Below, in pieces: positions 30,967 to 47,740 of a stretch of DNA of 64,000 nucleotides (positions are counted from its first letter, which is position 1; each line of letters begins with the position of its first letter). Both the position numbers and the translations under genes were made by a program. The notes beneath the pieces were generated by a model, which made no database searches, was not told the origin of the DNA, and was given only the letters and a program-made list of their open reading frames with translations. Origin of the DNA: Marinovum algicola. GTDB taxonomy: Bacteria; Pseudomonadota; Alphaproteobacteria; Rhodobacterales; Rhodobacteraceae. The DNA lies in the NCBI RefSeq assembly GCF_900109145.1, contig NZ_FNYY01000009.1:124001-188000 (forward strand). Reading direction: 5' to 3'.

Positions 30967-31836
30967 ATGACCGCGAAATACTATGCCCCCCACGGCGGCC
31001 ACCCCGGCCAGGACCAACTGCTGACCGACCGTGCCGTCTTTACCGATGCCTATGCCGTCATCCCGAAAGGAACGATGCGCGACATCGTCACCAGTTTTCT
31101 GCCGTTCTGGAACGACACCCGGCTCTGGGTGATTTCCCGCCCCCTGAGCGGCTTTGCCGAAACCTTTTCGCAATACATCATGGAAGTGCAGCCCGGCGGC
31201 GGCTCGGACCGACCGGAAACCGACCCCGGCGCCGAGGGCGTGCTGTTTGTCGTCGAAGGCACCGCAAGCCTGACGGTGCAGGGCGAAACCCATGAGATGA
31301 CCCCGGGCGGCTATGCCTATCTGCCACCCTCGACCGATTGGACCCTGTACAACCGGGGCAAGGAGACCCTGCGCTTTCACTGGGTGCGCAAGGCCTATGA
31401 GGCGGTCGAGGGCCTCGATCTGCCCGATGTGCTGATCCTGAACGAAAACGACATCGCGCCGACAGAGATGCCCGGCACCGACGGCAAATGGGCTACCACG
31501 CGCTTTGTCGACCCGAACGACCTGCGTCACGACATGCATGTCACCGTGGTGACCTTCGAGCCCGGCGCGGTGATCCCCTTCCTGGAAACCCATGTCATGG
31601 AACACGGGCTCTATGTGCTGGAAGGCAAGGCAGTCTATCGCCTCAACAACGACTGGGTCGAGGTCGAGGCCGGCGATTACATGTGGCTGCGCGCCTTCTG
31701 CCCGCAGGCCTGTTATGCCGGCGGCCCCGGCAAGTTCCGCTACCTGCTCTACAAGGACGTCAACCGCCACATGGCGCTGCGCCCGGCCCACGCCGGCCTT
31801 GCCTGCGGCCACCGGGTGCGCCAGGCCGCCGAATAG
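30967..31836 (+). CDS. allE: (S)-ureidoglycine aminohydrolase, bicupin
   Basis: This 289-residue double-cupin protein converts ureidoglycine to ureidoglycolate plus ammonia in allantoin breakdown. The ATG at 30967 follows CAGGAG; the frame opens at 30898 without a better site. The N-terminal part (ISRPLSGFAETFSQYIMEV) and the C-terminal cupin with FLETHVMEHGLYVLEGKAVY, including Glu and His metal ligands, match the family. Its product feeds ureidoglycolate lyase (41879-42376). It converges on bhcR with a hairpin in between. Confidence 0.87.
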   Translation: MTAKYYAPHGGHPGQDQLLTDRAVFTDAYAVIPKGTMRDIVTSFLPFWNDTRLWVISRPLSGFAETFSQYIMEVQPGGGSDRPETDPGAEGVLFVVEGTASLTVQGETHEMTPGGYAYLPPSTDWTLYNRGKETLRFHWVRKAYEAVEGLDLPDVLILNENDIAPTEMPGTDGKWATTRFVDPNDLRHDMHVTVVTFEPGAVIPFLETHVMEHGLYVLEGKAVYRLNNDWVEVEAGDYMWLRAFCPQACYAGGPGKFRYLLYKDVNRHMALRPAHAGLACGHRVRQAAE

Positions 31837-31887
31837 CCGCAGTCTGACCTCCGCGCCGTGACCGCGCGGCCGGAGCCAACGGCCGAG

Positions 31888-31908
31888 GCCCCGGGCCAAG
31901 CCCGGGGC
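31888..31908. terminator. GC-rich hairpin between convergent allE and bhcR
   Basis: GCCCCGGGC and GCCCGGGGC pair perfectly around CAA in the 80-base convergent gap. No T-run follows, so termination efficiency is uncertain. Confidence 0.5.
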
Positions 31909-31916
31909 GCGCCGCC

Positions 31917-32771
31917 TCACACCTCGCGCATTATCCCGCCGATGGCATGGGTCAGATCCCGCGCCGCCGCGATCACCGGGCGGCTCAAGCGGTCGACCTC
32001 TGCCATGCTGACGCGGCTTGTCGGGCCCGAGACCGAGATCCCCGCGATCGCCTCGCCGTTCAGATCGAACACCGGGGCGGCGATACAGCGCATGCCGGCA
32101 TTCTTTTCCTCATTGTCGATGGAAAAGCCCCGGGCCCGCACTTTCCGCAGATCCGCCCGCAGCGCCTCCCGGTCAGTGATCGTGTGATCGGTGAACACCT
32201 CCAGCCGGGTCGCGGCCAGAAAACGGCCCAGCCGCGCATCGTCCATCTGCGCCAGAAGCACCTTGCCGATGCCCGAGGAATGCATCGGCGACAAGGTGCC
32301 CGGCGGAAAGAAGGCGCGGATGCTGGCATGGGTTTCGACCTGGCTGAGAAACAGCACCGCGCCTTCCTGCTCGATCCCGAGATTGGCGGTCTCGCCGGTG
32401 TCCTCCATCAGACGCCGCAGGTACGGCCTGGCCCGGTCGACAAGGCTGGTGCGTCGCAGAAACCGCGCGCCGATCACATAGGCGCGGGGCCCGATGTGCC
32501 AAGTCTGATCCTCGGCGTCGAATTCCACCAGCCCCCGGCCTTCCAGCGTCACCAGAATCCGGTAAACCGTGGCCGGCGCCTGCCGCGTTTCGCTGGCCAG
32601 AGCGGTCAGCGACCTGCCCTGCGCCGCGCTGAGATATTCGAACACCTCCATCGCCCGATCCAGCGATTTGATGGTGTTCTGCGCGGTCTTGTCTTCCCAG
32701 CCCCGCGGCCGGCCCCGGGCCCGCCGCGGGCCTCGTTTTCCGCCATTGTCTTGAGAATCCATAAGAACCAT
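31917..32771 (-). CDS. bhcR: BhcR, IclR-family regulator of the beta-hydroxyaspartate cycle
   Basis: This 284-residue protein has a basic N-terminal extension (RGPRRARGRPRG), a winged helix at about 33-95 (KSLDRAMEVFEYLS... APATVYRILVTLEGRGLVEF) and an IclR effector domain. The start is the ATG at 32771 preceded by GGAAAG; an in-frame ATG at 32762 is an alternative. It is divergent from bhcA, the arrangement known from Paracoccus denitrificans, where BhcR responds to glyoxylate. The 160-base divergent gap holds an inverted repeat (32804-32839) suited to IclR binding. Confidence 0.9.
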   Translation of the reverse strand: MVLMDSQDNGGKRGPRRARGRPRGWEDKTAQNTIKSLDRAMEVFEYLSAAQGRSLTALASETRQAPATVYRILVTLEGRGLVEFDAEDQTWHIGPRAYVIGARFLRRTSLVDRARPYLRRLMEDTGETANLGIEQEGAVLFLSQVETHASIRAFFPPGTLSPMHSSGIGKVLLAQMDDARLGRFLAATRLEVFTDHTITDREALRADLRKVRARGFSIDNEEKNAGMRCIAAPVFDLNGEAIAGISVSGPTSRVSMAEVDRLSRPVIAAARDLTHAIGGIMREV

Positions 32772-32803
32772 CTGCTTTCCAGTGAAAGATAAATTCACTA
32801 TAT

Positions 32804-32839
32804 GAAAAATACAACTCATTGGCAATCATGGTATTTTTC
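32804..32839. promoter_or_regulatory. Inverted repeat in the bhcR-bhcA divergent region
   Basis: GAAAAATAC (32804-32812) and GTATTTTTC (32831-32839) are perfect 9-base arms separated by 18 bases. A smaller symmetric element ATTG-G-CAAT (32818-32826) shares the same centre. Nested symmetry in an AT-rich divergent gap is what an IclR tetramer would be expected to bind. Confidence 0.6.
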
Positions 32840-32931
32840 GAAACCGGGGCATTCCGAAAGCCGATTTCAAAATAATGTCGCCCGCCGTCGTCGTCATTTA
32901 AGGTGCAGACAACGACGGAAGGAGACCCCCC

Positions 32932-34122
32932 ATGAGCTTTCAAAACCCTGTTTTCATCCCGGGTCCGACGAACATCCCGGAAAACCTGCGCAAGGCCTGC
33001 GACATGCCGACGATCGACCATAGATCGCCGCTCTTCGGCCAGATCCTGCACCCGGCCCGCGAGGGTGTACGCAAGGTTCTGAAAAGCGACAGCGCCGAGG
33101 TCTTCATCTTCCCCTCGACCGGCACCGGCGGCTGGGAAACCGCGCTGACCAACTGTCTCTCGGCCGGTGACAAGGTGCTCTCGGCGCGCAACGGCATGTT
33201 CTCGCACCGCTGGATCGACATGTGCCAGCGCCACGGGCTGGACGTCCAGATCGTCGAGACCCCCTGGGGTGAAGGCCTGCCGGCGGATCGCTTCGAAGAG
33301 ATCCTGACCGCCGACACCAACCACGAGATCAAGGCCGTTCTGGCGACCCACAACGAGACCGCCACCGGGGTCAAATCCGACATCGCCGCAGTGCGCAAGG
33401 CACTGGACGCCGCCGGCCACCCGGCACTGATGTTCGTCGACGGCGTGTCCTCGATCGGGTCGATGGATTTCCGGTTTGACGAATGGGGCGTCGACGTGGC
33501 GGTTGCCGGCTCGCAGAAGGGCTTCATGCTGATGGCCGGCCTCGCCATCGTCGGCTTCAGCGAAAAGGCGATGGCAGCCACCCAGACCGCGACACTGCCG
33601 CGCACCTTCTTTGACGTGCATGACATGAAGAAAGGCTATGCCAACAGCGCCTATCCCTACACCCCCGCCGTCGGCATGTTGAACGGTCTGAACCAGGCCT
33701 GCACCATGCTGCTGGACGAAGGTCTCGAGAACGTCTTTGCCCGGCATCACCGCATCGCCGAAGGCGTGCGCGCCGCCGTGGGCGCCTGGGGGCTGGAGCT
33801 CTGCGCCGCCTCGCCGGACCTCTATTCCGACACGGTCAGCGCGATCCGCACGCCGGAAGGCTTCAACGCCACCGACATCGTGTCGCACGCCGCCAGCAAA
33901 TACGGCGTCGCCTTTGGCGTCGGTCTGGGCGAGGTCGCGGGCAAGGTGTTCCGCATCGGCCACCTCGGCTCGCTCACCGACGTGATGACCCTGTCGGGCC
34001 TCGCCACGGCGGAAATGTGCATGGCCGATCTCGGCCTCGACATCACGCTGGGCTCGGGCGTTGCCGCCGCGCAGGAATACTATCGCGGGCATGCCGTCGC
34101 GGCCCGGAAATCCGCAGCCTGA
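32932..34122 (+). CDS. bhcA: Aspartate-glyoxylate aminotransferase
   Basis: This 396-residue PLP enzyme of the serine-glyoxylate aminotransferase group (class V) transfers the aspartate amino group to glyoxylate, giving glycine and oxaloacetate. The PLP lysine is K196 in GSQKGFMLMAG; the N-terminal FIPGPTNIPENLRKA is the family opening. It starts after AAGGAG and heads the bhcABCD operon opposite bhcR. The order and gene set, not this sequence alone, separate it from a serine-cycle aminotransferase. Confidence 0.93.
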   Translation: MSFQNPVFIPGPTNIPENLRKACDMPTIDHRSPLFGQILHPAREGVRKVLKSDSAEVFIFPSTGTGGWETALTNCLSAGDKVLSARNGMFSHRWIDMCQRHGLDVQIVETPWGEGLPADRFEEILTADTNHEIKAVLATHNETATGVKSDIAAVRKALDAAGHPALMFVDGVSSIGSMDFRFDEWGVDVAVAGSQKGFMLMAGLAIVGFSEKAMAATQTATLPRTFFDVHDMKKGYANSAYPYTPAVGMLNGLNQACTMLLDEGLENVFARHHRIAEGVRAAVGAWGLELCAASPDLYSDTVSAIRTPEGFNATDIVSHAASKYGVAFGVGLGEVAGKVFRIGHLGSLTDVMTLSGLATAEMCMADLGLDITLGSGVAAAQEYYRGHAVAARKSAA

Positions 34123-34148
34123 GGACCCGTCTCATGAAGGATACACCG

Positions 34149-35102
34149 ATGTATATCCCCACCTACGACGACATGCTGGCCGCGCATGAGCGCATCAAGC
34201 CGCATATCCGCAAGACGCCGGTCCGCACCTCGGACTACCTCAACGAGCTTGCCGGGTGCCAGCTGTTCTTCAAATGCGAAAACTTCCAGGAGCCGGGGGC
34301 CTTCAAGGTCCGCGGCGCCTCCAACGCGGTGTTCGGGCTGGATGACGCACAGGCGAAACTGGGCGTCGCGACGCATTCCTCGGGCAACCATGCCTCCTGC
34401 CTCAGCTATGCGGCTATGAAGCGCGGCATCCCCTGCAACGTGGTCATGCCGCGTACCGCGCCGCAGGCCAAGAAGGACACCGTGCGGCGATACGGCGGCA
34501 AGATCACCGAATGCGAACCCTCGACAAGTTCGCGCGAAGTGACCTTTGCCGAGGTACAGGCGAAAACCGGCGGCGATTTCGTGCATCCCTACAACGATCC
34601 CCGGGTGATCGCCGGGCAGGGCACCTGTGCCAAGGAATTCGTCGAACAGGTCGACGGGCTGGATTTTGCCGTGGCCCCGATCGGTGGCGGCGGCATGATC
34701 TCGGGCACCTGCCTGACGCTTTCGACGCTGGCGCCCGAAACGAAAATCATCGCCGCCGAGCCGGAACAGGCCGACGATGCCTATCGCAGTTTCAAGGCCG
34801 GGCACATCATTGCAGATGACGCGCCCAAGACCGTGGCCGACGGGCTGCTGGTGCCGCTCAAGGATCTGACCTGGCACTTCGTGTCGAACCATGTCTCCGA
34901 GATCTTCACCGCTTCCGAGCAGGAGATCGTCGACGCGATGAAGCTGGTCTGGAAACACCTGCGTGTGGTGATGGAGCCGTCCTCCGCCGTGCCGCTGGCC
35001 ACCATCCTGAAAAACAAGGAGCACTTCGCGGGCAAGCGCGTCGGCGTGATCGTCACCGGTGGCAACGTCGACCTCGACAAGTTGCCGTGGATGGTGGGTT
35101 GA
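34149..35102 (+). CDS. bhcB: Beta-hydroxyaspartate dehydratase
   Basis: This 317-residue PLP enzyme of the serine racemase/threonine dehydratase fold eliminates water from beta-hydroxyaspartate to give iminosuccinate. The PLP lysine is K53 in AFKVRGASNAV; the phosphate-binding glycine loop is GGGGMISG at about 178. The ATG at 34149 (MYIPTYDDML) follows AAGGAT; the in-frame ATG at 34134 is a possible earlier start. There is no C-terminal ACT domain, unlike biosynthetic threonine dehydratase. It lies 26 bases after bhcA. Confidence 0.93.
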   Translation: MYIPTYDDMLAAHERIKPHIRKTPVRTSDYLNELAGCQLFFKCENFQEPGAFKVRGASNAVFGLDDAQAKLGVATHSSGNHASCLSYAAMKRGIPCNVVMPRTAPQAKKDTVRRYGGKITECEPSTSSREVTFAEVQAKTGGDFVHPYNDPRVIAGQGTCAKEFVEQVDGLDFAVAPIGGGGMISGTCLTLSTLAPETKIIAAEPEQADDAYRSFKAGHIIADDAPKTVADGLLVPLKDLTWHFVSNHVSEIFTASEQEIVDAMKLVWKHLRVVMEPSSAVPLATILKNKEHFAGKRVGVIVTGGNVDLDKLPWMVG

Positions 35103-35129
35103 AGACCCGCCTTACCCGGATTTCCGTAG

Positions 35130-35147
35130 GCCGGGCGGCCGCCCGGC
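35130..35147 (+). other. Intercistronic hairpin between bhcB and bhcC
   Basis: GCCGGGC and GCCCGGC pair around GGCC in the 67-base gap. No T-run follows. It could stabilise the upstream mRNA end or dampen read-through. Confidence 0.45.
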
Positions 35148-35169
35148 ACCTTCTCAGGGAGCAAGAAAG

Positions 35170-36333
35170 ATGAAAGACATGACCAACCTCGACAATTTCG
35201 AAGTCGGCTACGACATTCCCGCCAAGCCCGGCATGGACGAGGCCGATATCCAGACCCCCTGCCTGATCCTCGATCTCGACGCGCTCGAGCGCAACATCAA
35301 GAAAATGGGCGATTACGCCAAGGATCACGGCATGCGCCACCGGGCGCATGGCAAGATGCACAAGTCGGTCGACGTGCTGAAGCTGCAAATGGAGCTGGGC
35401 GGCGCAATCGGCGTCTGCTGCCAGAAGGTCTCGGAGGCCGAGGTCTTCGTGCGCGCCGGCATCACCGAAGTGCTGGTGTCGAACCAGGTGCGCGACGCGG
35501 CCAAGATCGAACGGCTGGCGCAGTTGCCCAAGCGCGGCGCCAATATCATCGTCTGCGTCGACGACCTGGCCAATGTCGTCGACCTCTCGGCGGCGGCCAA
35601 GGCCGAGGGAACCGAACTTGGCGTCTTTGTCGAGATCGACTGCGGCGCCGGGCGCTGCGGCGTGACCAGCACTGAGGCCGTGGTCGAGATCGCCCAGGCC
35701 GTGCAGGCCGCCGACAACCTGACCTACAAGGGCATCCAGGCCTATCAGGGCGCGATGCAGCACATGGACAGCTACGACGACCGCAAGGCCAAGATCGATG
35801 CCGCCGTGGCCCAGGTCAGCGACGCGGTCGCGGCACTCAAGGCGCTCGGCATAGAAACCGAGCTGGTCTCGGGCGGCGGCACCGGATCGTATTACTTCGA
35901 ATCCAATTCGGGCGTCTACAACGAGCTTCAATGCGGCTCTTATGCCTTCATGGACGCCGACTACGGCCGCATCCTCGACAAGGACGGCAACCGGATCGAC
36001 GCCGGCGAATGGGAAAACGCCTTTTTCATCCTGACCTCGGTGATGAGCCACGCCAAATCCGACAAGGCGATCTGCGACGCCGGCCTCAAGGCGCAGTCGA
36101 TCGACAGCGGGCTGCCCTTCATCTATGGCCGCGATGACGTGGAATACGTCAAATGCTCGGACGAGCACGGTGTGATTTCCGACCCCAAGGGCGCGCTCAA
36201 GGTCAACGACAAGCTGCGCCTGGTGCCCGGCCACTGCGACCCGACCGCCAATGTGCACGACTGGTATGTCGGTGTGCGGAACGGCAAGGTCGAGACCGTC
36301 TGGCCGGTCTCGGCCCGAGGCAAGGCCTACTAA
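35170..36333 (+). CDS. bhcC: Beta-hydroxyaspartate aldolase
   Basis: This 387-residue PLP enzyme of the D-threonine aldolase family condenses glycine and glyoxylate to beta-hydroxyaspartate. The PLP lysine is probably K62 in RAHGKMHKS, the equivalent of RPHxKTHK in D-threonine aldolases. Near the C-terminus LVPGHCDPTANV holds the His/Asp site for the divalent metal. The ATG at 35170 follows GGGAG; the open frame begins at 35059 without support. Third gene of bhcABCD. Confidence 0.93.
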   Translation: MKDMTNLDNFEVGYDIPAKPGMDEADIQTPCLILDLDALERNIKKMGDYAKDHGMRHRAHGKMHKSVDVLKLQMELGGAIGVCCQKVSEAEVFVRAGITEVLVSNQVRDAAKIERLAQLPKRGANIIVCVDDLANVVDLSAAAKAEGTELGVFVEIDCGAGRCGVTSTEAVVEIAQAVQAADNLTYKGIQAYQGAMQHMDSYDDRKAKIDAAVAQVSDAVAALKALGIETELVSGGGTGSYYFESNSGVYNELQCGSYAFMDADYGRILDKDGNRIDAGEWENAFFILTSVMSHAKSDKAICDAGLKAQSIDSGLPFIYGRDDVEYVKCSDEHGVISDPKGALKVNDKLRLVPGHCDPTANVHDWYVGVRNGKVETVWPVSARGKAY

Positions 36334-36378
36334 GCGCCTGAAACCCCGGGGAGGGGGAGAGCCCGAGAGGGCCAAAGT

Positions 36379-36420: not shown

Positions 36421-36446
36421 CACGAATTTTATGTGGGAGACAATAC

Positions 36447-37412
36447 ATGTTCATCGTACCCGAAAGAGACATCGCCGACCTTATGACCCGCGAAGCGGCT
36501 TTCGACGCCGTCGAAAAGGTGTTTGCCGCCATGGCGTCGGGCGACGCCTACAATTTCCCGGTCGTCCGCGAGGCCATCGGGCACGAGGATGCGCTTTACG
36601 GCTTCAAGGGCGGCTTCGACCGCGCCGGGCTGACACTCGGGCTGAAGGCGGGCGGCTATTGGCCGAACAACCTTGAAAAGCGCGGCATCATCAACCACCA
36701 GTCGACCGTCTTCCTGTTCGATCCCGACACCGGCAAGGCCAAGGCGATGGTCGGCGGCAACCTGTTGACCGCGCTGCGCACCGCGGCGGCCTCTTCGGTG
36801 TCGATCAAGCATCTGGCGCGCAAGGATGCCAAGGTGATCGGCATGGTCGGCGCCGGCCATCAGGCCAAGTTCCAGCTGCGCGCCGCGCTCGAGCAGCGCG
36901 ACTTCGAGAAGGTCATCGGCTGGAACTTCCATCCCGAGATGTTGCCCAATCTCGAAGAGGTCGCCAGCGAGGCCGGTCTGCCATTCGAGGCGGTCGCGCT
37001 CGAGGGTCTGGCCGAGGCGGATGTGATCATCTCGATCACCTCGTCGTTCGATGCCATCCTGCACGCGGATCATGTGGCCCCCGGCACCCATATCGCCTGC
37101 ATGGGCACCGACACCAAGGGCAAGCAAGAGGTCGAAACCGCACTTCTCGGCAAGGCCACGGTCTTTACCGACGAGGTGGCGCAATCGATCTCGATCGGCG
37201 AGGCACAACATGCGATCGAGAGCCAGATCCTGCGGGCCGAGGACATCACCCAGGTAGGCGCCGTGATCAACGGCACCCACCCGGGCCGGATCTCGGACGA
37301 CGAGATCACCCTCTTCGACGGCACCGGTGTCGGTCTTCAGGATCTGGCCGTCGCGGCGGCGGTTGTCGATCTGGCGGTGGCCAAGGGCCTCGCCATCGAA
37401 GTGGATTTCTGA
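36447..37412 (+). CDS. bhcD: Iminosuccinate reductase
   Basis: This 321-residue enzyme of the ornithine cyclodeaminase/mu-crystallin family reduces iminosuccinate to L-aspartate, closing the cycle by regenerating the amino donor of BhcA. The Rossmann loop reads GMVGAGHQAKFQLRAAL at about 139. K85 and R-rich segments of the substrate dimerisation lobe lie N-terminal. The ATG at 36447 follows GGGAGA. It could be called a cyclodeaminase from sequence alone; the operon context decides. Confidence 0.92.
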   Translation: MFIVPERDIADLMTREAAFDAVEKVFAAMASGDAYNFPVVREAIGHEDALYGFKGGFDRAGLTLGLKAGGYWPNNLEKRGIINHQSTVFLFDPDTGKAKAMVGGNLLTALRTAAASSVSIKHLARKDAKVIGMVGAGHQAKFQLRAALEQRDFEKVIGWNFHPEMLPNLEEVASEAGLPFEAVALEGLAEADVIISITSSFDAILHADHVAPGTHIACMGTDTKGKQEVETALLGKATVFTDEVAQSISIGEAQHAIESQILRAEDITQVGAVINGTHPGRISDDEITLFDGTGVGLQDLAVAAAVVDLAVAKGLAIEVDF

Positions 37413-37512: not shown

Positions 37513-38025
37513 ATGCTTCTGCCCCTGTCATTGTTGTTCGTGGGTGCTGTCCTCGTGCTCAACGGCCTGTGGATGGCGGGACGGATTTCCGACCGCGAGA
37601 TCGTGGTGATCAATTTCGCCACCGCCGCGATCACCGCTACCGTCGCCATCCTGTCGCTGGTGCGGGCAACCGGGGTGGCCGAGGTCCGCAGCGTGGCGAT
37701 GACGCTGTTGTTCAGCGTGACCTACCTCTGGGTGGCGATCAACCGGCTGAGCGGGTCGGACGGGCGCGGTCTGGGCTGGTTCAGCCTCTTCGTGGCGCTC
37801 TCGGTCCTGCCTGAAGCGGTGCGCAGCCTCGCCGTCGCACAAAGCGCGATGGATGTCTGGCTGGGCCTGTGCTGGGTCGCCTGGGCGGGACTGTGGTTCA
37901 CCTATTTCCTGGCGCTGGGCCTGCAACGGCCGATCCAGTCGCAGGCCACCGTTGCCACGCTGGCCAGCGGCGTGCTGACCGCCTGGCTGCCAGCGCTGTT
38001 TCTGATGTACGGGGCACCGGCCTGA
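37513..38025 (+). CDS. AmiS/UreI-family urea or amide channel
   Basis: This 170-residue membrane protein has about six hydrophobic spans and the family markers VGAVLVLNGLWMAGRI at the start, RGLGWFSLFVAL in the middle, WLGLCWVAWAGLWFTYFLALGL later, and TAWLPALFLM at the end. The ATG at 37513 follows AGAGG; the frame opens earlier at 37327 inside bhcD. Family members pass urea, ammonium or short amides. Its place beside ureidoglycolate lyase and purine permeases suggests it moves urea released in purine breakdown. No urease gene is in the window. Confidence 0.85.
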   Translation: MLLPLSLLFVGAVLVLNGLWMAGRISDREIVVINFATAAITATVAILSLVRATGVAEVRSVAMTLLFSVTYLWVAINRLSGSDGRGLGWFSLFVALSVLPEAVRSLAVAQSAMDVWLGLCWVAWAGLWFTYFLALGLQRPIQSQATVATLASGVLTAWLPALFLMYGAPA

Positions 38026-38152: not shown

Positions 38153-39667
38153 ATGTCATCCGACATGACGGCCGATACCGTCACCCCCGATGCGGTGCAC
38201 GCCGTTGACGAAAAACTGCCCGCCGGCAAGCTGTTCACGCTCGGGCTGCAACATGTGCTGGTGATGTATGCCGGCGCCATCGCCGTGCCGCTGATCGTCG
38301 GCCGCGTCCTGGAACTGACCCCAGAACAGGTCGCCTTTCTGATCTCGGCCGACCTGTTTGTCTGCGGTCTGGTGACCATCATCCAGTCGTTCGGCGCCTC
38401 GAAATGGTTCGGCATCAAGATGCCGGTCATGATGGGGGTGACCTTTGCCTCGGTGGGCCCGATGGTGGCGATTGCCGCCGCCAACCCGGGCACCGAAGGC
38501 GCGCGCATGATCTTTGGCGCAATCATCGGCGCGGGCGTGATCGCCATGCTGATCGCGCCGCTGGTCAGCCGCATGCTGCGGTTCTTTCCGCCTGTGGTGA
38601 CCGGGACGATCATCCTGGTGATCGGCGTGACGCTGATGCGGGTCGGCATCCAGTGGATCTTCGGCGTGCCGGTCGGCCCGACTGCGCCGCAGCTTGTCGA
38701 TCCTGCCCATGCCGACTGGCTGACCCAGATCCGCGATCTCGGCGCTGGCGCGGTTCCGGTAGTGCCCGAGGGGCTGAAACTGGCCCCCACCGTGAACAAC
38801 GTGAACTATGCCACACCGCAGAACATGATGATCTCGGCCCTGGTGCTGGGGACCATCGTCGTGGTGATGAAATACGCCCGCGGTTTCCTCGCCAATATCT
38901 CGGTGCTGGTCGGTATCGTCGTCGGCGCGGTGGCGGCCTCGGCCCTGGGCATCATGCACTTCGAGCATGTCGGCAAGGCCGAATGGTTCGAGCTGATCAC
39001 CCCGTTCCGTTTCGGCCTGCCGATCTTTGACCCGATCATGATCCTGACCATGACCCTGGTGATGATCGTCGTGATGATCGAATCCACCGGCATGTTCCTC
39101 GCTCTGGGCGACATCTGCGGCAAGAAGATCGAACGCCCGTCGCTGTCGGCCGGCCTGCGCACCGACGGCCTTGGCACGCTGATCGGCGGGCTGTTCAACA
39201 CCTTTCCCTATACCTCGTTCAGCCAGAACGTGGGCCTTGTCGGGGTGACCGGCATCCGCTCGCGCTATGTCTGCGTGATGGGCGGCGCGATCATGATCGT
39301 GCTCGGGCTGGTGCCGAAGATGGGCGCGCTGGTCGAAAGCCTGCCGGTGGCCGTTCTCGGCGGCGCCGGGCTGGTGATGTTCGGCATGGTGGCCGCAACA
39401 GGCATCCGCATCCTCGGCGGCGTTGATTTCAAGGAGAACCGCTACAACGGGCTGATCGTGGCGATTTCGCTCGGGATGGGGATGATCCCGCTGATCGCCC
39501 CGGAATACACCATGTGGCTGCCGCATGCGATCGAACCGCTGATCCATTCCGGCATCCTGCTGGCCTCGATTGCCGCCGTGGGACTGAACGTCGCGTTCAA
39601 CGGCGCCAGGGACGTCAGTGAAGACGAGTTGCGCACCGCCGCGCTGCAAGCGGAAGGTGGTCACTGA
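38153..39667 (+). CDS. NCS2 nucleobase permease (xanthine/urate type), copy 1
   Basis: This 504-residue inner-membrane symporter of the nucleobase-ascorbate transporter family has about 14 spans. The family signature appears as SQNVGLVGVTGIRSR at about 356-370, preceded by the MIESTGMFLALGD segment carrying the conserved glutamate. Surrounding genes point to xanthine or urate as substrate. GGAGGAG precedes the ATG. It is followed by a good terminator (39697), so bhc-channel-permease forms a unit on the plus strand. Confidence 0.92.
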   Translation: MSSDMTADTVTPDAVHAVDEKLPAGKLFTLGLQHVLVMYAGAIAVPLIVGRVLELTPEQVAFLISADLFVCGLVTIIQSFGASKWFGIKMPVMMGVTFASVGPMVAIAAANPGTEGARMIFGAIIGAGVIAMLIAPLVSRMLRFFPPVVTGTIILVIGVTLMRVGIQWIFGVPVGPTAPQLVDPAHADWLTQIRDLGAGAVPVVPEGLKLAPTVNNVNYATPQNMMISALVLGTIVVVMKYARGFLANISVLVGIVVGAVAASALGIMHFEHVGKAEWFELITPFRFGLPIFDPIMILTMTLVMIVVMIESTGMFLALGDICGKKIERPSLSAGLRTDGLGTLIGGLFNTFPYTSFSQNVGLVGVTGIRSRYVCVMGGAIMIVLGLVPKMGALVESLPVAVLGGAGLVMFGMVAATGIRILGGVDFKENRYNGLIVAISLGMGMIPLIAPEYTMWLPHAIEPLIHSGILLASIAAVGLNVAFNGARDVSEDELRTAALQAEGGH

Positions 39668-40381: not shown

Positions 40382-41818
40382 TCAGGCGCGGCTGTCCTTG
40401 GCGTAAGAACCTTCACCGTGACCGGACATGCCACCCGAGACTTCCTCGGTGGATTCGTCGGTCAGCTCTTCGGGCAGCACCAGGTTCAGCACGATAGCGA
40501 GGAAGGCCGCCGGCAGAAGACCCGAGGTCAGCAGCACGCGGGCGGTTTCCGGCAGGTGCTGGAGCGCACCCGGTTCGAGCTGCAAGCCGAGGCCGAGGCT
40601 CAGCGAGATGGCGAAGATCACCATGTTGCGCCGGTTCCAGTGCACGTCCGAGAGCATCGAGATGCCGGCCGCGACCACCATGCCGAACATTACGATCACA
40701 CCGCCGCCCAGCACCTCGATCGGCACCGTGCGGATCACGCCGCCCACTTTCGGGACCAGCCCGCAGATGATAAGGAAGATCGCGCCGCAGGTGACCACGT
40801 GGCGGCTCATCACGCCGGTCATGGCAATCAGGCCGACGTTCTGGCTGAACGAGGTGTTGGGAAAGCCGCCGAAGATGCCGGCCAGCGCCGTGCCGAAACC
40901 GTCGGCATAGGTCGCGCCGGTGACTTCTTCGGCCGTGGCCTCGCGGCCCGCGCCGCCCTTGGTGATCCCCGAGACATCGCCCACCGTTTCAATCGCCGAG
41001 ATAAAGGCCATCAGGCAGAAGCCGATCACCGCGGCAATCGAGAACTCGAAACCGTATTTGAACGGTTGCGGCAGCGCGAAGGCGGCGGAATTGGCCCAGG
41101 AGCCGGTGATGGCGTCGAGGCTGAGCATCCCGACCGCAATGGCATAGACATAGCCCACGATCAGGCCGATCAGCACCGCCGAGATCGACAGCATGCCCTT
41201 GGTGAAGAACTTCAGCCCCAGTGTCACCACGATCACCACGATCGCCGCCGACCAATTCAGCAGGCTGCCGTATTCCGGCGTGCCGATGGCCGGAACGCCG
41301 CCCGCGGCATACTGGATGCCGACCTTGACCAGCGCGAGGCCGATCATCGTCACCACGAGGCCGGTAACCAGCGGCGGCAGGGCAAAGCGCAGCTTGCCGA
41401 CGAAAGTCCCGATAAAGGCGTGGAAGATGCCGCCGACGATCACGCCGCCGAACAGCGCGGCAAGCCCGTCGACGCCCTTGCCCGCAACCAGCGGAATCAT
41501 GATCGGCAGAAAGGCAAAGGACGTGCCCTGCACGATCGGCAGCGCCGCGCCGACCGGCCCGAGGGTGATGGTCTGAAGCAGCGTGGCGACACCGGCAAAC
41601 AGCATCGACATCTGGATAAGGTAGAGCAGTTCGGGAAAATCAGCCGAGCCCGAGCCAAAGCCAAATCCGGCGGCGCCGGCGACGATGATCGCGGGTGTCA
41701 CGTTGGACACGAACATCGCCAGAACGTGCTGGATGCCCAGCGGTATGCCCTTGGCCAGACCCGGGAAGTAATTTGGATCCCGGAGTTGCTCCGGTGTCCC
41801 GATTGATGTGTCAGCCAT
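40382..41818 (-). CDS. NCS2 nucleobase permease (xanthine/urate type), copy 2
   Basis: This 478-residue symporter has about 14 spans and the family signature SQNVGLIAMTGVMSRH at about 328-342, preceded by AFISAIETVGDVSG with the conserved glutamate. The start chosen is the ATG at 41818 after GGGGAGAG; an in-frame ATG at 41833 is possible. It ends in a hydrophilic acidic tail. It is only distantly similar to copy 1, so the two probably differ in substrate. Last gene of the minus operon with allA and puuE/uraD, which suggests uric acid, xanthine or allantoin. Confidence 0.92.
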   Translation of the reverse strand: MADTSIGTPEQLRDPNYFPGLAKGIPLGIQHVLAMFVSNVTPAIIVAGAAGFGFGSGSADFPELLYLIQMSMLFAGVATLLQTITLGPVGAALPIVQGTSFAFLPIMIPLVAGKGVDGLAALFGGVIVGGIFHAFIGTFVGKLRFALPPLVTGLVVTMIGLALVKVGIQYAAGGVPAIGTPEYGSLLNWSAAIVVIVVTLGLKFFTKGMLSISAVLIGLIVGYVYAIAVGMLSLDAITGSWANSAAFALPQPFKYGFEFSIAAVIGFCLMAFISAIETVGDVSGITKGGAGREATAEEVTGATYADGFGTALAGIFGGFPNTSFSQNVGLIAMTGVMSRHVVTCGAIFLIICGLVPKVGGVIRTVPIEVLGGGVIVMFGMVVAAGISMLSDVHWNRRNMVIFAISLSLGLGLQLEPGALQHLPETARVLLTSGLLPAAFLAIVLNLVLPEELTDESTEEVSGGMSGHGEGSYAKDSRA

Positions 41819-41878: not shown

Positions 41879-42376
41879 TCAGTCCGCCACCACCTCGTAG
41901 GGCGTGTCGAACCAGTGCTCCTCCAGGTTGGCGCCGTCGCCGATGCGGTCGATCACCGCAAACACCCCGGATCCGCCGAGCGGTGTCAGCACCCCGTGCC
42001 AGACATTGCGCCCGATATTGACCGCCTGCCCCGGTTCCGTGCGATAGGCACGCGGCGCGCCCGGGCGGCCGTTTTCATCTTCGGCCAGCACGACAAGAAA
42101 GCCCTCGTCGCTCATCGGGATGAAGGCCTGTGACCCCAGCGGATGCCGCTCCATCATCTCCAGCCGGAACGGCAGGCTGAAGACCTCGGATTTGAACAGG
42201 CTGATGCCGGCGCGGCCGTCGACGATGTCGAGCGCGGCCAGATCGTGGAACCGACCGCAGAGGCCCTTGTTGATCAGCTTGTCGGGCGTCCCCGCGCAGC
42301 CGATCAGCTCGGCCAGACCGGCCATGGCCCCTGCCTCGGCAGGCCGGGCGGTGATCTTGTCCGATGTCACGGTCAT
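41879..42376 (-). CDS. allA: Ureidoglycolate lyase
   Basis: This 165-residue enzyme splits ureidoglycolate to glyoxylate and urea. The motifs ERHPLGSQAFIPM, FLVVLAEDENGRPG and NIGRNVWHGVLTPL are characteristic. Length fits the family. It overlaps the puuE/uraD stop by four bases and precedes NCS2 copy 2. Its glyoxylate product is the substrate of BhcA and BhcC, encoded about 5 kb away, and its urea product fits the UreI-type channel. Confidence 0.93.
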   Translation of the reverse strand: MTVTSDKITARPAEAGAMAGLAELIGCAGTPDKLINKGLCGRFHDLAALDIVDGRAGISLFKSEVFSLPFRLEMMERHPLGSQAFIPMSDEGFLVVLAEDENGRPGAPRAYRTEPGQAVNIGRNVWHGVLTPLGGSGVFAVIDRIGDGANLEEHWFDTPYEVVAD

Positions 42377-43788
42377 GGCAGCAGATCCTTCAGGCGGAAT
42401 TCGGCAATGCGCTCGACCTGCCGGCAGGCCTCGGCGAATTCGGTGTCGCGGTCGTTGCCGATGCGGCGGTCAAAGGCCGCCATGATCGACGCCTTGTCGT
42501 GATCGCGCACCGCAATGATGAAGGGAAACCCGTGCTTTTCAACGTAGTCGCCGTTGAGCCGTGTGAAGGTTTCGCGCTCTTCGTCGGTCAGCATGTCGAG
42601 CCCGGCACCGGCCTGTTCCGAGGTGCTCTCGGCGGTCAGCCGCCCGGCCGCTGCCAGTTTTCCGGCCAGATCGGGGTGCGCGGTCAGCACGCCCAGGCGC
42701 TTGTCGGGCGCGGCGGTGCGGAACACCCGCGCCAGTGCATTGTGCAGCCCCAGGGCGGTGTCATGTGCCGGCCCGAGCTCCAGGTCATGCGCCCCTTCGG
42801 CGATCCAGGCCGAATGTTCGAAAATGCCACCGAACCTGCTCACGAAATCCTCGCGCGTCATCTCGCTGGGCCGCTCCCGGCGTTCATGCGGATGAGTCTT
42901 TGCCCAGTGCTCGGCGATTTCCAGACGCGTCGGGCACCAGACGTCGTCAAAGCTGAGAATATAGTCGATGAACCGCTTCAGCGCCGCGATCTTGCCCGGA
43001 CGGCCGACCAGCCGGCAATGAAGGCCGATCGACATCATCTTGGGACTGCCGGCCTGACCTTCGGCATAAAGCGTGTCGAAGGCATCCTTGAGATAAGAGC
43101 CGAAATCCTCACCCGTGACCCAGCCCGGCGCGGTGGCAAAGCGCATGTCATTGGCTTCCAGCGTATATGGAATGATCAGCTGGTCACGGTCGCCGTATTC
43201 GCGCCAATACGGCAGATCGTCGTCGTAGGTGTCGGAAATATAGTCAAATTGCCCGGTTTCCGCCGCCAGTCGCACGGTGTTTTCGCTGCACCGGCCGGTG
43301 TACCAGCCGCGCGGTTCCTCGCCCACCACCTCGGTATGCAGGCGGATCGCCTCGGCGATGGCCGCACGTTCCTCGGCTTCGGGCATGTCCTTGTGTTCGA
43401 CCCATTTCAGACCGTGGCTGGCAATCTCCCAGCCGGCAGACTTCATCGCCGCGACCTGCTCGGGGCTGCGCGCCAGTGCCGAGGCGACGCCGTAGATGGT
43501 CACCGGTATTGCCGCCCCGGTGAACAGGCGGTGCAGGCGCCAGAAACCGGCCCTGGCGCCGTATTCGTAGATCGATTCCATGTTCCAGTGGCGCTGCCCC
43601 GGCCACATCGCCGCACCGGGGATGTCGGACAGGAAGGCCTCGGAGGCCGCGTCGCCGTGCAACACGCAGTTCTCGCCGCCCTCTTCATAGTTCAGCACGA
43701 ACTGTACGGCCACCTTCGCACCATTGGGCCATTGAGCGTCGGGAATGCGGGGACCGTAACCGATCATGTCGCGCGGATAACGTGTCAA
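42373..43788 (-). CDS. puuE/uraD: Fusion of cofactor-free allantoinase (PuuE) and OHCU decarboxylase (UraD)
   Basis: This 471-residue protein joins two purine enzymes. Residues 1-305 form a polysaccharide-deacetylase-fold allantoinase (PuuE): [18 protein letters not shown] at the start, [36 protein letters not shown] and [10 protein letters not shown]. Residues 310-471 form OHCU decarboxylase: [17 protein letters not shown], then [12 protein letters not shown] with the catalytic-site histidine, [11 protein letters not shown] and [11 protein letters not shown]. The fusion covers OHCU to (S)-allantoin and allantoin to allantoate. Such fusions are known in proteobacteria. First gene of its operon and divergent from uraH, which makes OHCU. 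Confidence 0.93.
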
Positions 43789-43937
43789 TTTGGAACTCCT
43801 TTTGGTCTTGCCCCTTCATAGAGCATAAAATCAGATGTGTTTTTCAAATAATACTAGAAGGAGCATCTTGTCGCCTGCTGTTTGTGTCCGGCGGGCTTTC
43901 ACGCGTACAAATCAACAAGCATAAAAGGAGGCTACCC

Positions 43938-44291
43938 GTGACCGGCTATCTGACAACACATGTCCTCGACACTGCACGCGGCTGCCCGGCGGAGGGCCTG
44001 AAGATCGAACTCTATCGGATCGAAGGCGACAGCCGGACGCTTCTCAAGACGCTGAAGACCAACGATGACGGGCGCACCGACGAACAGATCCTGCCGGCGG
44101 AAAAATTCGCGACCGGCACCTACGAGCTGGTGTTCCATGCCGGCGCCTATCTGGATGCCACCGGCACACCGCCAGAGACGCCGCGGTTCCTTGACGTCAT
44201 ACCGCTGCGGTTCGGGATGTCGGAAGCGTCTCACTATCATGTGCCGCTGTTGCTGTCGCCCTTCGGCTACAGCACCTACCGGGGCAGCTGA
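43938..44291 (+). CDS. uraH: 5-hydroxyisourate hydrolase (transthyretin-like)
   Basis: This 117-residue protein starts at the GTG at 43938, which follows AAAGGAGG at six bases, and opens with [18 protein letters not shown], the family N-terminus. It ends in [18 protein letters not shown]; the terminal YRGS is the diagnostic tetrapeptide of HIU hydrolases. No signal peptide, so cytoplasmic. It acts between PuuD and UraD. The frame is open back to 43782, but only the GTG start has a ribosome site and begins with family sequence. Confidence 0.94.
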
Positions 44292-44319
44292 GCGACGCTC
44301 AGCTCCCTTGGCCCCCCGA

Positions 44320-45237
44320 TCATCCCTGGGCGGCCTCGCGCACGGTCGCCCCGATCCGGTCGATGATGAAATCCATGAACAGCCGGGTCTTGGGATCCTG
44401 CCGCCGCCGGTGGGTGAACAGACAGGCCATTTGCACCGGCTCCGGCGGGGTGTCGGTGGCCACGGGCACCAGCGCGCCCGATTTCAGGTGATGCGCGATC
44501 TCGAAGATCGGCTTCATCACGATGCCCTGCCCCGCCAGCGCCCAATCGGTCAGCACATCGCCATCATCGGATTCGTACCTGCCCTTGACCGGAAAGCGCT
44601 CGGGCCCGGTCGCGGTCATCAGTCGCCACTGGAACTCGGCCGCGCCGGGAAACCGCAGGTTGAGGCATTCATGCCCCTGCGCCAGGATCTCCTGGCCATT
44701 CGCCGGCATGCCGCGCCGGTCCACATAAGACGGAGCGGCGCAGAGAATGCGTTCGACATCGGCGATCTTGCGGATCCGCAGATTGCTGTCTTCCGGCTGG
44801 CCGAGAAAGAAGGCCAGATCGAGCCCCTCGGTGGTGAGATCGACCTTGCGGTCGGTCAGCCGCAGGCGGACGCTGACCTCGGGATATTCGGTCAGAAAAT
44901 CGGGCACCTCCGGCGCAATCAGCCTGCGTCCCACACCAAGCGGCGCCGCTACGTAAAGCGACCCCTTGAGGTTCTCGGTCATGTCGACGATCTGCGCCTC
45001 GGCATTTTCCACCGCCTCGAGGATCTCGATCGCCCCGCGATAGAAGGACTTGCCCTGTTCCGTCGGGTTCAGCGACCGGGTGGTGCGCTGAAACAGCCGC
45101 ACGCCGAGATGTTCCTCGAGCTGCGCGATCCGCGCCGACGTCACCGCCGGAGAAATCCTCAGATCGCGCCCGGCGGCGGACATGCTGCCCAATTCGTAGA
45201 CGCGAACAAAGGTGCGGATACTGTCGAAATAGGACAT
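44320..45237 (-). CDS. LysR-family regulator divergent from puuD
   Basis: This 305-residue protein begins at the ATG at 45237 (MSYFDSIRTFVRVYELGSMS). The helix-turn-helix is at about 3-62 and the effector domain at about 88-295 (GSLYVAAPLGVGRRLIAPEVPDFL...). It resembles the large CrgA-type LysR group. It is divergent from the urate oxidase gene across 100 bases and convergent with uraH, so control of urate degradation is likely, though no clear T-N11-A palindrome stands out in the gap. Confidence 0.87.
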   Translation of the reverse strand: MSYFDSIRTFVRVYELGSMSAAGRDLRISPAVTSARIAQLEEHLGVRLFQRTTRSLNPTEQGKSFYRGAIEILEAVENAEAQIVDMTENLKGSLYVAAPLGVGRRLIAPEVPDFLTEYPEVSVRLRLTDRKVDLTTEGLDLAFFLGQPEDSNLRIRKIADVERILCAAPSYVDRRGMPANGQEILAQGHECLNLRFPGAAEFQWRLMTATGPERFPVKGRYESDDGDVLTDWALAGQGIVMKPIFEIAHHLKSGALVPVATDTPPEPVQMACLFTHRRRQDPKTRLFMDFIIDRIGATVREAAQG

Positions 45238-45337
45238 TGTTCGTTTTTCTTTGAGACTGCTTGGTGTTTCACGGCAATACCAGAACAAACGCCGGTCCGC
45301 TAGTCTGGCTGCGAACACGAATCTTGGGAGAACCGCC

Positions 45338-46564
45338 ATGTATGACTTGGCAATCATTTGGGACTGGATCGCCTTTTCTGTGCGATGGCTCCACATCATC
45401 ACCGCGATGGCCTGGATCGGCGCCTCGTTCTACTTCGTGGCGCTCGACCTGATGCTGAAGCCCAATCCGAACCTGCCCGACGGCGCGCATGGCGAGGAAT
45501 GGGAGGTGCATGGCGGCGGCTTCTATCACACCGTCAAATACCTCGTGGCGCCGGCCGAGATGCCCGAGCATCTGACCTGGCACAAATGGCAGAGCTATTC
45601 GACCTGGCTGTCGGGCGCCGTACTGTTGATGATCATCTATTGGGTCGGCGGCGAGCTCTTTCTGATCGATCCGACCAAGGCCGATCTGTCGCTGTGGCAG
45701 GCGATCCTGATTTCCGGCGGCTCGCTCACCATCGGCTGGATAGCCTATGACTTCCTCTGCAAGTCCAAGCTGGGCGAAACTCCGACGCTGCTGATGCTGC
45801 TGCTGTTTGCCATCCTCGTGGCAATGTCCTGGGGCTACAACCAGATATTCACCGGCCGCGCGGCGCTCCTGCACCTCGGCGCCTTTACCGCGACGATCAT
45901 GACCGCCAATGTGTTCTTCCAGATCATGCCGAACCAGCGCATCGTGGTGAACGACCTCAAGGAAGGCCGCACCCCGGACGCCAAATACGGCAAGATCGCC
46001 AAGCTGCGCTCGACCCACAACAACTATCTGACGCTGCCGGTCGTCTTCCTGATGCTGTCCAACCACTACCCGCTGGCCTTTGCCACCGAGTACGCCTGGA
46101 TCATTGCCAGCCTGATCTTTCTGACCGGTGTCACCATCCGGCATTACTTCAATACCATGCACCGCACCGGCAAGGGCCCGCATTGGACCTGGGCGGTCAC
46201 CGTGATCATCATGCTGGTCATCGCCTGGCTGTCGATCGTGCCCAGCATGGACAGTTACGAGGAATCCCAGGCCCGGGCGCTGACCCCCTACGAGCAGAAG
46301 TTCGCCTCGGCCGAAGGCTTCGCCGAGGCCTATGACACCGTGGTCGGCAATTGCTCGATGTGCCACGCGCGAGAGCCGGTCTGGGAGGGGCTGCACTGGG
46401 CGCCCAAGGGGATCTTTCTGGAAACCGAGGCCGATGTCGCGCGCAATGCGCAGCAGGTATTTCTGCAAGCCGGGGTCAGCCACGCCATGCCGCCGCCCAA
46501 CGCGATCCAGATGGATGAGGCGGACCGCCGGACCCTCGTTGCCTGGTATCGCGACGGCCTTTAG
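45338..46564 (+). CDS. puuD: Membrane urate oxidase with C-terminal cytochrome c (PuuD)
   Basis: This 408-residue protein oxidises urate to 5-hydroxyisourate and passes electrons to its own cytochrome c domain rather than making hydrogen peroxide. The N-terminal 310 residues hold about eight spans (IAFSVRWLHIITAMAWIGASFYFV opens the first). The tail has the heme motif C339-S-M-C-H343 and a probable axial methionine M384 in HAMPPPN. The ATG at 45338 follows GGGAG; the frame is open to 45251. It starts the three-enzyme path PuuD, UraH, UraD. Confidence 0.93.
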   Translation: MYDLAIIWDWIAFSVRWLHIITAMAWIGASFYFVALDLMLKPNPNLPDGAHGEEWEVHGGGFYHTVKYLVAPAEMPEHLTWHKWQSYSTWLSGAVLLMIIYWVGGELFLIDPTKADLSLWQAILISGGSLTIGWIAYDFLCKSKLGETPTLLMLLLFAILVAMSWGYNQIFTGRAALLHLGAFTATIMTANVFFQIMPNQRIVVNDLKEGRTPDAKYGKIAKLRSTHNNYLTLPVVFLMLSNHYPLAFATEYAWIIASLIFLTGVTIRHYFNTMHRTGKGPHWTWAVTVIIMLVIAWLSIVPSMDSYEESQARALTPYEQKFASAEGFAEAYDTVVGNCSMCHAREPVWEGLHWAPKGIFLETEADVARNAQQVFLQAGVSHAMPPPNAIQMDEADRRTLVAWYRDGL

Positions 46565-46573
46565 GGTTGAACA

Positions 46574-46608
46574 CCGGGGCGCAAGCGTATTCACTTGACG
46601 CGCCCCGG
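46574..46608 (+). terminator. Hairpin after puuD
   Basis: CCGGGGCGC and GCGCCCCGG pair perfectly with a 17-base loop, ten bases past the puuD stop. No T-run follows, so it may be only a partial terminator before glxA-like. Confidence 0.45.
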
Positions 46609-46711
46609 CCGCGCCGAACCTGGCGGATCGACCCGATCCCGCCGCGGTGCGGGCGGGTGCCTCCGCAACCGGCTGGCCGCATGTCGGCACGACTTACCAC
46701 GGCAGGTCCCG

Positions 46712-47740
46712 ATGCCAGAAAAACCGCGCGCCGCAGCCAGGAACCGCCTGGCGCTGATCCCCGAAGGCGCGTTCAGCTATCCGATCGACCGGCCCGGACC
46801 CACACGGTGGTTCGGGTTTCTGCTGTTGCCCGAGTTCACGCTTCTGGCTTTCAGCTCGGCCATCGATCCGCTCAGGATTGCCAATCAACTCGCCGGCAAG
46901 CCGCTTTACGGCTGGCTCGTGCTGTCCGAGGACGGCCAGCCGGTGCCCGCCTCTGCCGGGCTTGAGATCTCGGCGCAGGCCGGTCTCGAGGCGCTCGACC
47001 CGGGCGTGCACCTGTTTGTCTGCTCCGGCAATCGCGGCACCGAGGTCGCCACGGACCGTGCCCTGGCCGCGATCCGCAAGCACAGCCGCTTTGGCGGCGC
47101 GGTCGGCGGCATCTGTACCGGCGCCGCCACGTTGGCACGGGCCGGCCTGCTGGACGGCAAACGGTTCACTCTGCACTGGGAGAACCAGCCGGGGTTCACC
47201 GAGGCCTTTCCCGACCTCGAGCCAAGCAGCACGCGGGTGGAAAGGGACGGAACGCTGCTGACCTGTGGTGGCGGATCGGCCGCCACCGACATGATGGTCG
47301 ACATCATCGCCGCGGATTACGGCCGGGACTTTGCCATCGCTGTCGCCGACATGTGCCTGAACGCCCCCGCACCCGCGCCCGACCGCGAACAGCGCTCATC
47401 CATCGCCAAGGCGATCAGCTCGCGCAACGCCCGGCTGCTGCATGTGCTCAGATCGATGTATGCTCATATCGAAGAGCCGCTGACGCTTGACGGGTTGGCC
47501 GAGAATGCCGGAATTTCGCGGCGCCAACTGGAGCGGCTGTTCCGCCTGTTCCTGAAGGAATCCCCCGCCACCACCTATCGCAACATCCGCCTCGACCGGG
47601 CGCATTCGCTGCTGGCCGAGACCGACATGAGCGTGATGGAAATCGCGCTGGCCACCGGGTTCAGCGATGTCGCCCTGCTGGCGCGGCACTACAAGGCCCG
47701 CTTCGGGCAGACGCCTTACGGCAAACGCGGCAAGAAATGA
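46712..47740 (+). CDS. GlxA-type regulator (DJ-1/PfpI plus AraC domain)
   Basis: This 342-residue regulator joins a class I glutamine-amidotransferase-like DJ-1/PfpI sensor (about 25-200; nucleophile-elbow cysteine in GGICTGAATLA) to an AraC-type double helix-turn-helix (about 230-335; ISRRQLERLFRLFLKESPATTY). The ATG at 46712 is chosen for the AGGTC site; the frame opens at 46595. Relatives control choline, carnitine and amino-acid catabolism, usually as activators. Its place after puuD suggests purine or glyoxylate-linked genes as targets, but the effector is unknown. Confidence 0.87.
   Translation: MPEKPRAAARNRLALIPEGAFSYPIDRPGPTRWFGFLLLPEFTLLAFSSAIDPLRIANQLAGKPLYGWLVLSEDGQPVPASAGLEISAQAGLEALDPGVHLFVCSGNRGTEVATDRALAAIRKHSRFGGAVGGICTGAATLARAGLLDGKRFTLHWENQPGFTEAFPDLEPSSTRVERDGTLLTCGGGSAATDMMVDIIAADYGRDFAIAVADMCLNAPAPAPDREQRSSIAKAISSRNARLLHVLRSMYAHIEEPLTLDGLAENAGISRRQLERLFRLFLKESPATTYRNIRLDRAHSLLAETDMSVMEIALATGFSDVALLARHYKARFGQTPYGKRGKK

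Follow-up and report, generated by a model that had tools for sequence, protein, structure and literature searches.

Beta-hydroxyaspartate cycle genes in purine catabolic islands of Rhodobacteraceae: a probable module for assimilating purine-derived glyoxylate

Introduction

Is the beta-hydroxyaspartate (BHA) cycle arranged to assimilate glyoxylate from glycolate alone, or also the glyoxylate released from purines? The question is raised by 64,000 nucleotides of DNA from Marinovum algicola (contig NZ_FNYY01000009.1, positions 124,001 to 188,000 of the forward strand; hereafter the window, to which coordinates refer), where an island at 30967-47740 holds the cassette bhcRABCD between AllE on the left and a permease-AllA-PuuE/UraD-UraH-PuuD block on the right. 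Currently, the cycle is presented as the bacterial route that recovers algal glycolate. Judging from sequence and gene context in the window and in other genomes of Rhodobacteraceae, bhcRABCD probably serves an island for the catabolism of purines (urate, allantoin) as its module for assimilating glyoxylate.

The system of reference is that of Paracoccus denitrificans, where bhcR is Pden_3922 and glcR is Pden_4400. The accessible text on this organism describes the cycle for glycolate and glyoxylate, reports BhcR as a glyoxylate-dependent activator required for growth on both substrates, and points out a potential palindrome upstream of bhcA; purine bases and allantoin are mentioned there merely as a further glyoxylate source, and the words 'ureido', 'urate' and 'xanthine' do not occur in it (PMC11323563). 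The Marinovum cassette shares the five genes, the divergent bhcR and the palindrome upstream of bhcA with this system as so described, and differs in that it sits inside a purine island. An open-access literature search gave no paper on a bhc-purine gene neighbourhood; a description may stand in the primary paper of 2019.

The bhc cassette and its purine neighbours

Genes of the window were called from a list of open reading frames (ORFs), with codon scoring and profile scans (NCBIfam with its curated cut-offs, and Pfam). The regulator gene bhcR (31917-32771, minus strand) encodes an IclR-type regulator of the BHA cycle (NF045644, 398 bits against a cut-off of 350) and is divergent from bhcA (32932-34122), which encodes L-aspartate--glyoxylate aminotransferase (NF045640, 757 against 650). 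It is followed, likewise on the plus strand, by bhcB (34134-35102; beta-hydroxyaspartate dehydratase; NF045641, 584 against 550), bhcC (35170-36333; 3-hydroxy-D-aspartate aldolase; NF045642, 748 against 690) and bhcD (36447-37412; iminosuccinate reductase; NF045643, 593 against 500). The closest solved structures for the last two are D-3-hydroxyaspartate aldolase (6qkb, 704 bits) and iminosuccinate reductase (6rqa, 456 bits), respectively.

To the left of the cassette lies the gene of AllE, also called UGLYAH, the (S)-ureidoglycine aminohydrolase (30967-31836, plus strand; NF008376, 537 bits against 338). To the right, 101 bp past bhcD, begins the gene of an AmiS/UreI-family urea or amide channel (37513-38025, plus strand; PF02293, 168 bits), which resembles the acid-activated urea channel 3ux4 (E 8e-15). 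Then come an NCS2 purine permease of the pbuX type (38165-39667, plus strand; TIGR03173, 497 bits against 414) and a second one in opposite orientation (40382-41818, minus strand; same model, 423 bits). On this minus strand are also found allA (41879-42376), for the ureidoglycolate lyase that forms glyoxylate and urea (PF04115, 163 bits against 23; 2bdr, E 3e-26), and a puuE-uraD fusion (42373-43713), for allantoinase and 2-oxo-4-hydroxy-4-carboxy-5-ureidoimidazoline (OHCU) decarboxylase (TIGR03212, 474 bits against 425; TIGR03164, 207 against 96). The start of the fusion is uncertain, 471 amino acids (aa) being given in the record of pMaD4, a plasmid of M. algicola DG 898 to which the window is 98.95% identical over 33 kb. 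The plus strand then carries uraH, for hydroxyisourate hydrolase (43938-44291; TIGR02962, 127 bits against 87, scored on the longer ORF 43782-44291), and puuD, for a membrane urate oxidase (45338-46564; PF06181, Urate_ox_N, 439 bits) whose C-terminal CSMCH is a motif of the cytochrome c type. PuuD, UraH, UraD, PuuE, AllE and AllA are thus all together in the island, and every gene named in the initial annotation was recovered in the order given there.

Recurrence and specificity of the linkage

BhcC was found at E 1e-150 in 199 of the 394 genomes of the family (393 genera), and above the cut-off in 168. Loci were drawn from the best BhcC places listed (weakest 743 bits), so that the survey describes high-scoring BhcC only. 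From these, 147 places in 146 genomes were taken, the Marinovum genome and two genomes sampled already (G154 and G252) being omitted; the 121 places no nearer than 10.5 kb to the contig start were retained (without G481, sampled already) and shuffled, and the first 100 were used, one locus per genus, as stretches of about 10 kb on each side of bhc, some of them truncated where the contig ends. One or more of five purine genes (AllE, AllA, PuuE-UraD, UraH and PuuD) stand near bhc in 43 of the 100 loci, three or more in 31 and all five in 19. The neighbourhood first noticed in a single genome is therefore not unique to it. Among 80 named loci, a non-random sample of closest relatives, one or more of the five genes are found in 50, and three or more in 25.

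The linkage is also specific. Genes of histidine degradation (hut), taken as a control, stand beside bhc in one locus of the 100, relatives of the malate synthase GlcB in three, and relatives of GlcD, GlcE or GlcF (at least 35% identity to the E. coli protein over half its length) in none. Function-blind clustering of all 1651 predicted ORFs of these loci gave as commonest clusters after bhcRABCD, counted in genera, AllE (34), PuuE-UraD (33), UraH (27), AllA (25) and the NCS2b permease (24), then a gene like that of glyceraldehyde-3-phosphate dehydrogenase (GAPDH; 24), the LysR gene of the island (19) and PuuD (17). Another cluster of 17 genera was set aside: its 859-aa representative overlaps other genes and, in our reading, looks like a spurious antisense ORF.

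Coordinates alone provide a further control, built on the top-scoring rows of the BhcC, AllA and GlcD lists. Of the 62 genomes listed for both AllA and bhcC, 28 have the two no more than 10 kb apart; a GlcD-class gene lies within this distance of AllA in none of 37, and glcD within it of bhcC in none of 73. Membership of the GlcD class was set at 390 bits or more, the curated cut-off of 568 being reached in none of 80 genomes; in the one GlcD-class locus retrieved, relatives of glcF, glcE and glcD are adjacent.

Gene orders and history of the linkage

Core gene orders were compared in 38 loci holding both bhc and PuuE-UraD. The order of the window, AllE-bhc-AllA-PuuE, is that of 21 loci; in six, among them L012, bhc stands ahead of AllA-AllE-PuuE, and in another six, where AllE is not seen, ahead of AllA or PuuE. 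Other orders are seen in single loci, with bhc past UraH (L136), past PuuD beside an intact AllE-AllA site (L171) or on the AllA strand (L202), with the window order inverted (L149), or with the genes rearranged (L014). Purine islands exist without the cassette as well: in all of 20 AllA loci from genera without BhcC at threshold, picked from the best-scoring AllA rows, the purine genes are kept and bhc is absent. AllE faces AllA as in the window in nine of these 20; in L211, L212, L219 and L224, AllE is at most 200 bp from NCS2b or AllA. In L221, whose genome has no BhcC at this threshold, a BhcR-like gene (46%), perhaps a remnant, is beside AllA and AllE.

On a FastTree phylogeny of 108 concatenated BhcABCD sets, 49 of which are linked to one or more of the five, the linkage state changes at least 24 times, or 27 times if three genes are demanded; gain and loss are counted alike, and loci at contig ends may count as unlinked, which inflates the changes. 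On a tree of PuuE-UraD with 58 rows, of which 38 have bhc and 20 lack it, 14 changes are needed, against a minimum of 13 in 30 label shuffles, so bhc linkage is near-scattered there, a pattern compatible both with insertion of bhc into the islands and with its loss from them.

Operon-like spacing is met in Paracoccus, the genus where the BHA cycle was worked out and where purine genes often stand right behind bhcD. The 80 named loci include 19 from Paracoccus, of species other than P. denitrificans; in 14 of these, purine genes lie downstream of bhcD in the same orientation. Typically a permease gene begins about 36 bp past bhcD, ahead of those for an amidohydrolase, UraH and PuuD, and some gaps are as short as 4 bp when gene starts are picked by script. 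The amidohydrolase of L062 is an 8-oxoguanine deaminase (688 bits against 532), and xdhA follows further on in this locus, past a LysR gene; plasmid pPAN3 of P. pantotrophus has the order of L062 and an XdhB above cut-off. According to the accessible text of PMC4562309, P. denitrificans is said to be reported as capable of oxidative urate degradation.

Proposed pathway and carbon balance

The sequences establish which genes are present and that their linkage recurs and is specific; from protein families and established pathway knowledge we infer the following reactions, and co-expression and flux are presumed. NCS2 permeases would bring in purines, and PuuD, UraH, UraD and PuuE would degrade urate as far as allantoate. 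This would be turned into ureidoglycine by an allantoate amidohydrolase whose gene lies elsewhere; AllE would then take off ammonia, and AllA would cleave the ureidoglycolate to urea and glyoxylate. With aspartate as amino donor, BhcA would convert one glyoxylate to glycine, to which BhcC would join a second glyoxylate; BhcB and BhcD would regenerate aspartate, for a net yield of one oxaloacetate. BhcR, with glyoxylate as activator, would switch bhc on whichever the source of glyoxylate. Elsewhere in the Marinovum genome, xanthine dehydrogenase is found twice above cut-off, and three members of the broad family TIGR01879, candidate allantoate amidohydrolases, also pass theirs; a urease candidate is encoded as well.

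Urate (C5) gives one glyoxylate (C2), one urea and CO2, and the BHA cycle makes one oxaloacetate from two glyoxylate. Under this textbook stoichiometry, the initial view that purine carbon reaches oxaloacetate without loss of CO2 holds for the glyoxylate carbons from glyoxylate onward and fails for purine carbon overall.

A comparable architecture is known in the allantoin regulon of E. coli (allA-allR-gcl-hyi-glxR-allW-allB-ybbY-glxK and allE-allC-allD), where a module for glyoxylate assimilation and a glyoxylate-responsive regulator of the IclR family (AllR, according to the accessible text of PMC11323563) are likewise set within a ureide-catabolism cluster. The two differ in the route taken: glyoxylate carboligase and the glycerate pathway in E. 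coli, with release of CO2, and the BHA cycle in Marinovum. The best reading is that bhc probably plays in purine catabolism the part that gcl has in the E. coli regulon. Glyoxylate carboligase itself was rejected as a rival sink: it passes the 711-bit cut-off in none of the 394 genomes, that of Marinovum included (best 369 bits, with at most three candidates scored per genome). The association of PuuD with UraH and UraD is, for its part, that of PuuD-type urate oxidation in proteobacteria, in a paper whose accessible main text differs from the present proposal in not containing the words glyoxylate or aspartate (PMC4562309).

Evidence bearing against the coupling

Several results weigh against a coupling of purine catabolism to the BHA cycle. 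Most bhc loci of the survey (57 of 100) lack all five purine genes over the stretch sampled. AllA is present in 366 of the 394 genomes and BhcC in 199, their presence and absence not being coupled, and BhcC occurs in nine of the 20 listed genomes without AllA; co-occurrence was dropped as evidence on these grounds. In the window itself, AllA, PuuE-UraD and one permease face opposite to bhc, so there is no single operon. AllA matches eight NCBIfam ureidoglycolate-lyase models and passes the cut-off of none (best 234 bits against 260), and its four matches among solved chains each bear the name ureidoglycolate hydrolase; since the Pfam cut-off is passed, the family assignment holds and that of strict equivalog does not. 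In the deep part of the BhcABCD tree, a clade of 25 rows has just two linked. Elsewhere in the class, 15 BhcC loci of other families were retrieved; purine genes accompany only two of them (L012 and L014), and in a third, L009, relatives of glcD, glcE and glcF stand directly ahead of bhcC and bhcD. Purine linkage is thus chiefly a trait of Rhodobacteraceae, and glycolate linkage exists elsewhere; L009 is the sole glycolate-linked arrangement among 120 loci. Lastly, the Marinovum genome encodes malate synthase G and, on a separate contig (C38, bhc being on C50), a GlcD-class oxidase, so that other sinks and sources of glyoxylate exist.

Regulation adds to these points. Training on 168 bhcR-bhcA intergenic regions, that of the window included, yielded a palindromic matrix, TTtTGAAAAa.tTTTTCAaAA, which exceeds 8 bits in 161 of these same training regions. 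Its best match in the window (22.9 bits) is the predicted BhcR operator between bhcR and bhcA (32852-32872). Within bhc loci, scores of at least 10 bits occur at 167 of 182 bhcA promoters, and at only six of 59 puuE and four of 71 uraH promoters; no promoter of AllE (67), AllA (58), NCS2a (29), NCS2b (43), PuuD (55) or UreI (11) reaches this value. The puuE promoter of the window scores 7.7, and L053, the sole locus without bhcA that attains 10 bits at puuE, is a bhc locus truncated where its contig stops. One BhcR regulon covering both bhc and the purine genes was rejected for this reason, the predicted operator being mostly absent from purine promoters. Upstream of puuE, at a distance of about 135 bp, several loci including the window (43829-43849) have a TTTTGAAAAAC-like half-site that resembles half of the palindrome; it is also present in the bhc-negative L225, and so is not read as a BhcR site. 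Induction of bhc by purine-derived glyoxylate would in any case require no shared operator.

The supply of BhcA and BhcC by AllA, as first proposed, thus gains from the recurrence of the linkage, from the spacing in Paracoccus, from the lack of an adjacent glycolate oxidase in the surveyed loci of the family and of a carboligase above cut-off; it loses from the rarity of BhcR operators at purine promoters and from the presence of malate synthase G and a GlcD-class oxidase. Taken together, coupling is the best explanation of a linkage that is specific, recurrent and variously arranged.

Alternative explanations

Purines may serve as a nitrogen source, with bhc clearing by-product glyoxylate and no growth on purine carbon. 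Each purine releases much nitrogen and a single glyoxylate, and a UreI-type channel together with a urease is compatible with nitrogen use. AllA is, moreover, near-universal and also found without bhc, in genera that must dispose of glyoxylate by other means. A four-gene carbon-assimilation cycle seems excessive for detoxification, which is an argument and not a test, and the GAPDH-like gene just past bhcD in many genera is plausibly gluconeogenic. We consider this explanation somewhat unlikely.

Another possibility is that bhc is a glycolate cassette carried in plasmid-borne catabolic islands, with purine genes as mere co-travelling neighbours. The window matches a plasmid and adjoins hut and other catabolic clusters, and 117 plasmid records hold a BhcC relative at E 1e-150. 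A GlcD-class oxidase is present in 75 of the 80 bhc-bearing genomes (on the contig of bhcC in 20, at 23 kb for the closest), which implies that most hosts are able to make glyoxylate from glycolate too, linked or not. The majority of bhc loci without purine neighbours and the glcDEF relatives of L009 fit this explanation as well. It accounts poorly for the specificity of the neighbours within the family, purine genes outnumbering hut and GlcD/E/F relatives and AllA never listed near glcD, for the several distinct linked arrangements and for the operon-like spacing in Paracoccus; we regard it as decidedly improbable.

That BhcA would instead act on a purine intermediate, for instance as a PucG-like ureidoglycine--glyoxylate aminotransferase, with no BHA cycle at all, is very hard to believe: its relatives include PucG (3isl, 'purine catabolism protein') and a ureidoglycine-glyoxylate aminotransferase (3nnk), and AllE implies that ureidoglycine is formed, but BhcA passes its equivalog cut-off, scores 379 bits with serine--glyoxylate aminotransferase against 125 with PucG, and the four bhc genes stay together.

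Solo BhcC, GAPDH-like genes and other features

In 35 genomes of separate genera the best BhcC match is weaker (504-707 bits), four being above cut-off. Thirty such loci were retrieved with at most 1.5 kb on each side; eight have other bhc genes and one (L241) ends at a contig edge. Among the remaining 21, where BhcC stands solo, six (L240, L253, L255, L257, L262 and L268) abut AllE, AllA, PuuE-UraD or PuuD, and in L240 and L255 BhcC occupies the site, after AllE and before NCS2b, that holds bhcRABCD in the window. BhcB is above cut-off in none of 26 genomes (genera) with a weaker BhcC match (best 255 bits), and in all four bhc genomes used as control. Lys62 (K62) and the GHCDP motif, which we take to be catalytic, are retained in all 21 solo BhcC, and these fall outside a 44-row clade that holds all full-cycle sequences but one, with modest support and a midpoint root. 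As a guess, solo BhcC may form a linear branch from glycine and glyoxylate to hydroxyaspartate. A more speculative idea, which we consider unlikely, is that the BHA cycle was assembled in purine islands, or repeatedly returned to them, as a sink for purine glyoxylate and came to serve for glycolate as well, with solo BhcC beside AllE, in genera without the cycle, as a surviving early stage; the mostly unlinked deep clade (two of 25 rows) and the loci outside the family (two of 15 linked) speak against it. In L253/L016 the order is AllE, BhcC, a GAPDH-like gene and malic enzyme, and in L247 BhcC adjoins xdhB/xdhC-like genes.

The GAPDH-I-like gene, found in 24 genera and not in the window (e.g. 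L142:11547-12527; 323 bits, below the cut-off of 367), lies at most 200 bp past bhcD on the same strand in 20 of these genera, and also occurs in four of the 20 purine islands without bhc (L207, L214, L216 and L222). Cys149, His176, Thr179 and Arg231, whose roles are presumably those in GAPDH, are retained in 28 of 28 copies.

Some genomes hold more than one set of genes. G154 has two bhc clusters (L006 and L013), one inside a full purine island and the other with AllE and a UreI-type gene nearby, which possibly divide tasks; G481, of the genus of the window, also has two BhcB above cut-off. In L067, an 11-kb contig filed as Spirulina subsalsa, BhcB and BhcC are 88% and 81% like those of the window, perhaps through alphaproteobacterial contamination.

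Three genes of the window island were omitted from the initial annotation. A 150-aa ORF (39845-40297, plus strand) has no Pfam match and a 64% identical copy in Salipiger marinus (L027), also behind the permease. A LysR-type regulator (44320-45237, minus strand; PF00126, PF03466) lies between uraH and puuD, where many other islands have one. An AraC-type regulator with a DJ-1/GATase1 domain (46712-47740, plus strand; PF12833, PF01965), whose link to the island is uncertain, resembles GbdR yet stays under its cut-off (268 against 480). The hut cluster (23419-30744) borders the island on the left. Rfam and tRNA scans of the window gave no matches.

Conclusion

If the coupling is true for a large share of the hosts in the family, the ecological role of the BHA cycle would lie partly in the use of purine-derived carbon, and bhc transcripts in the environment would not be readable as a signal of glycolate alone.

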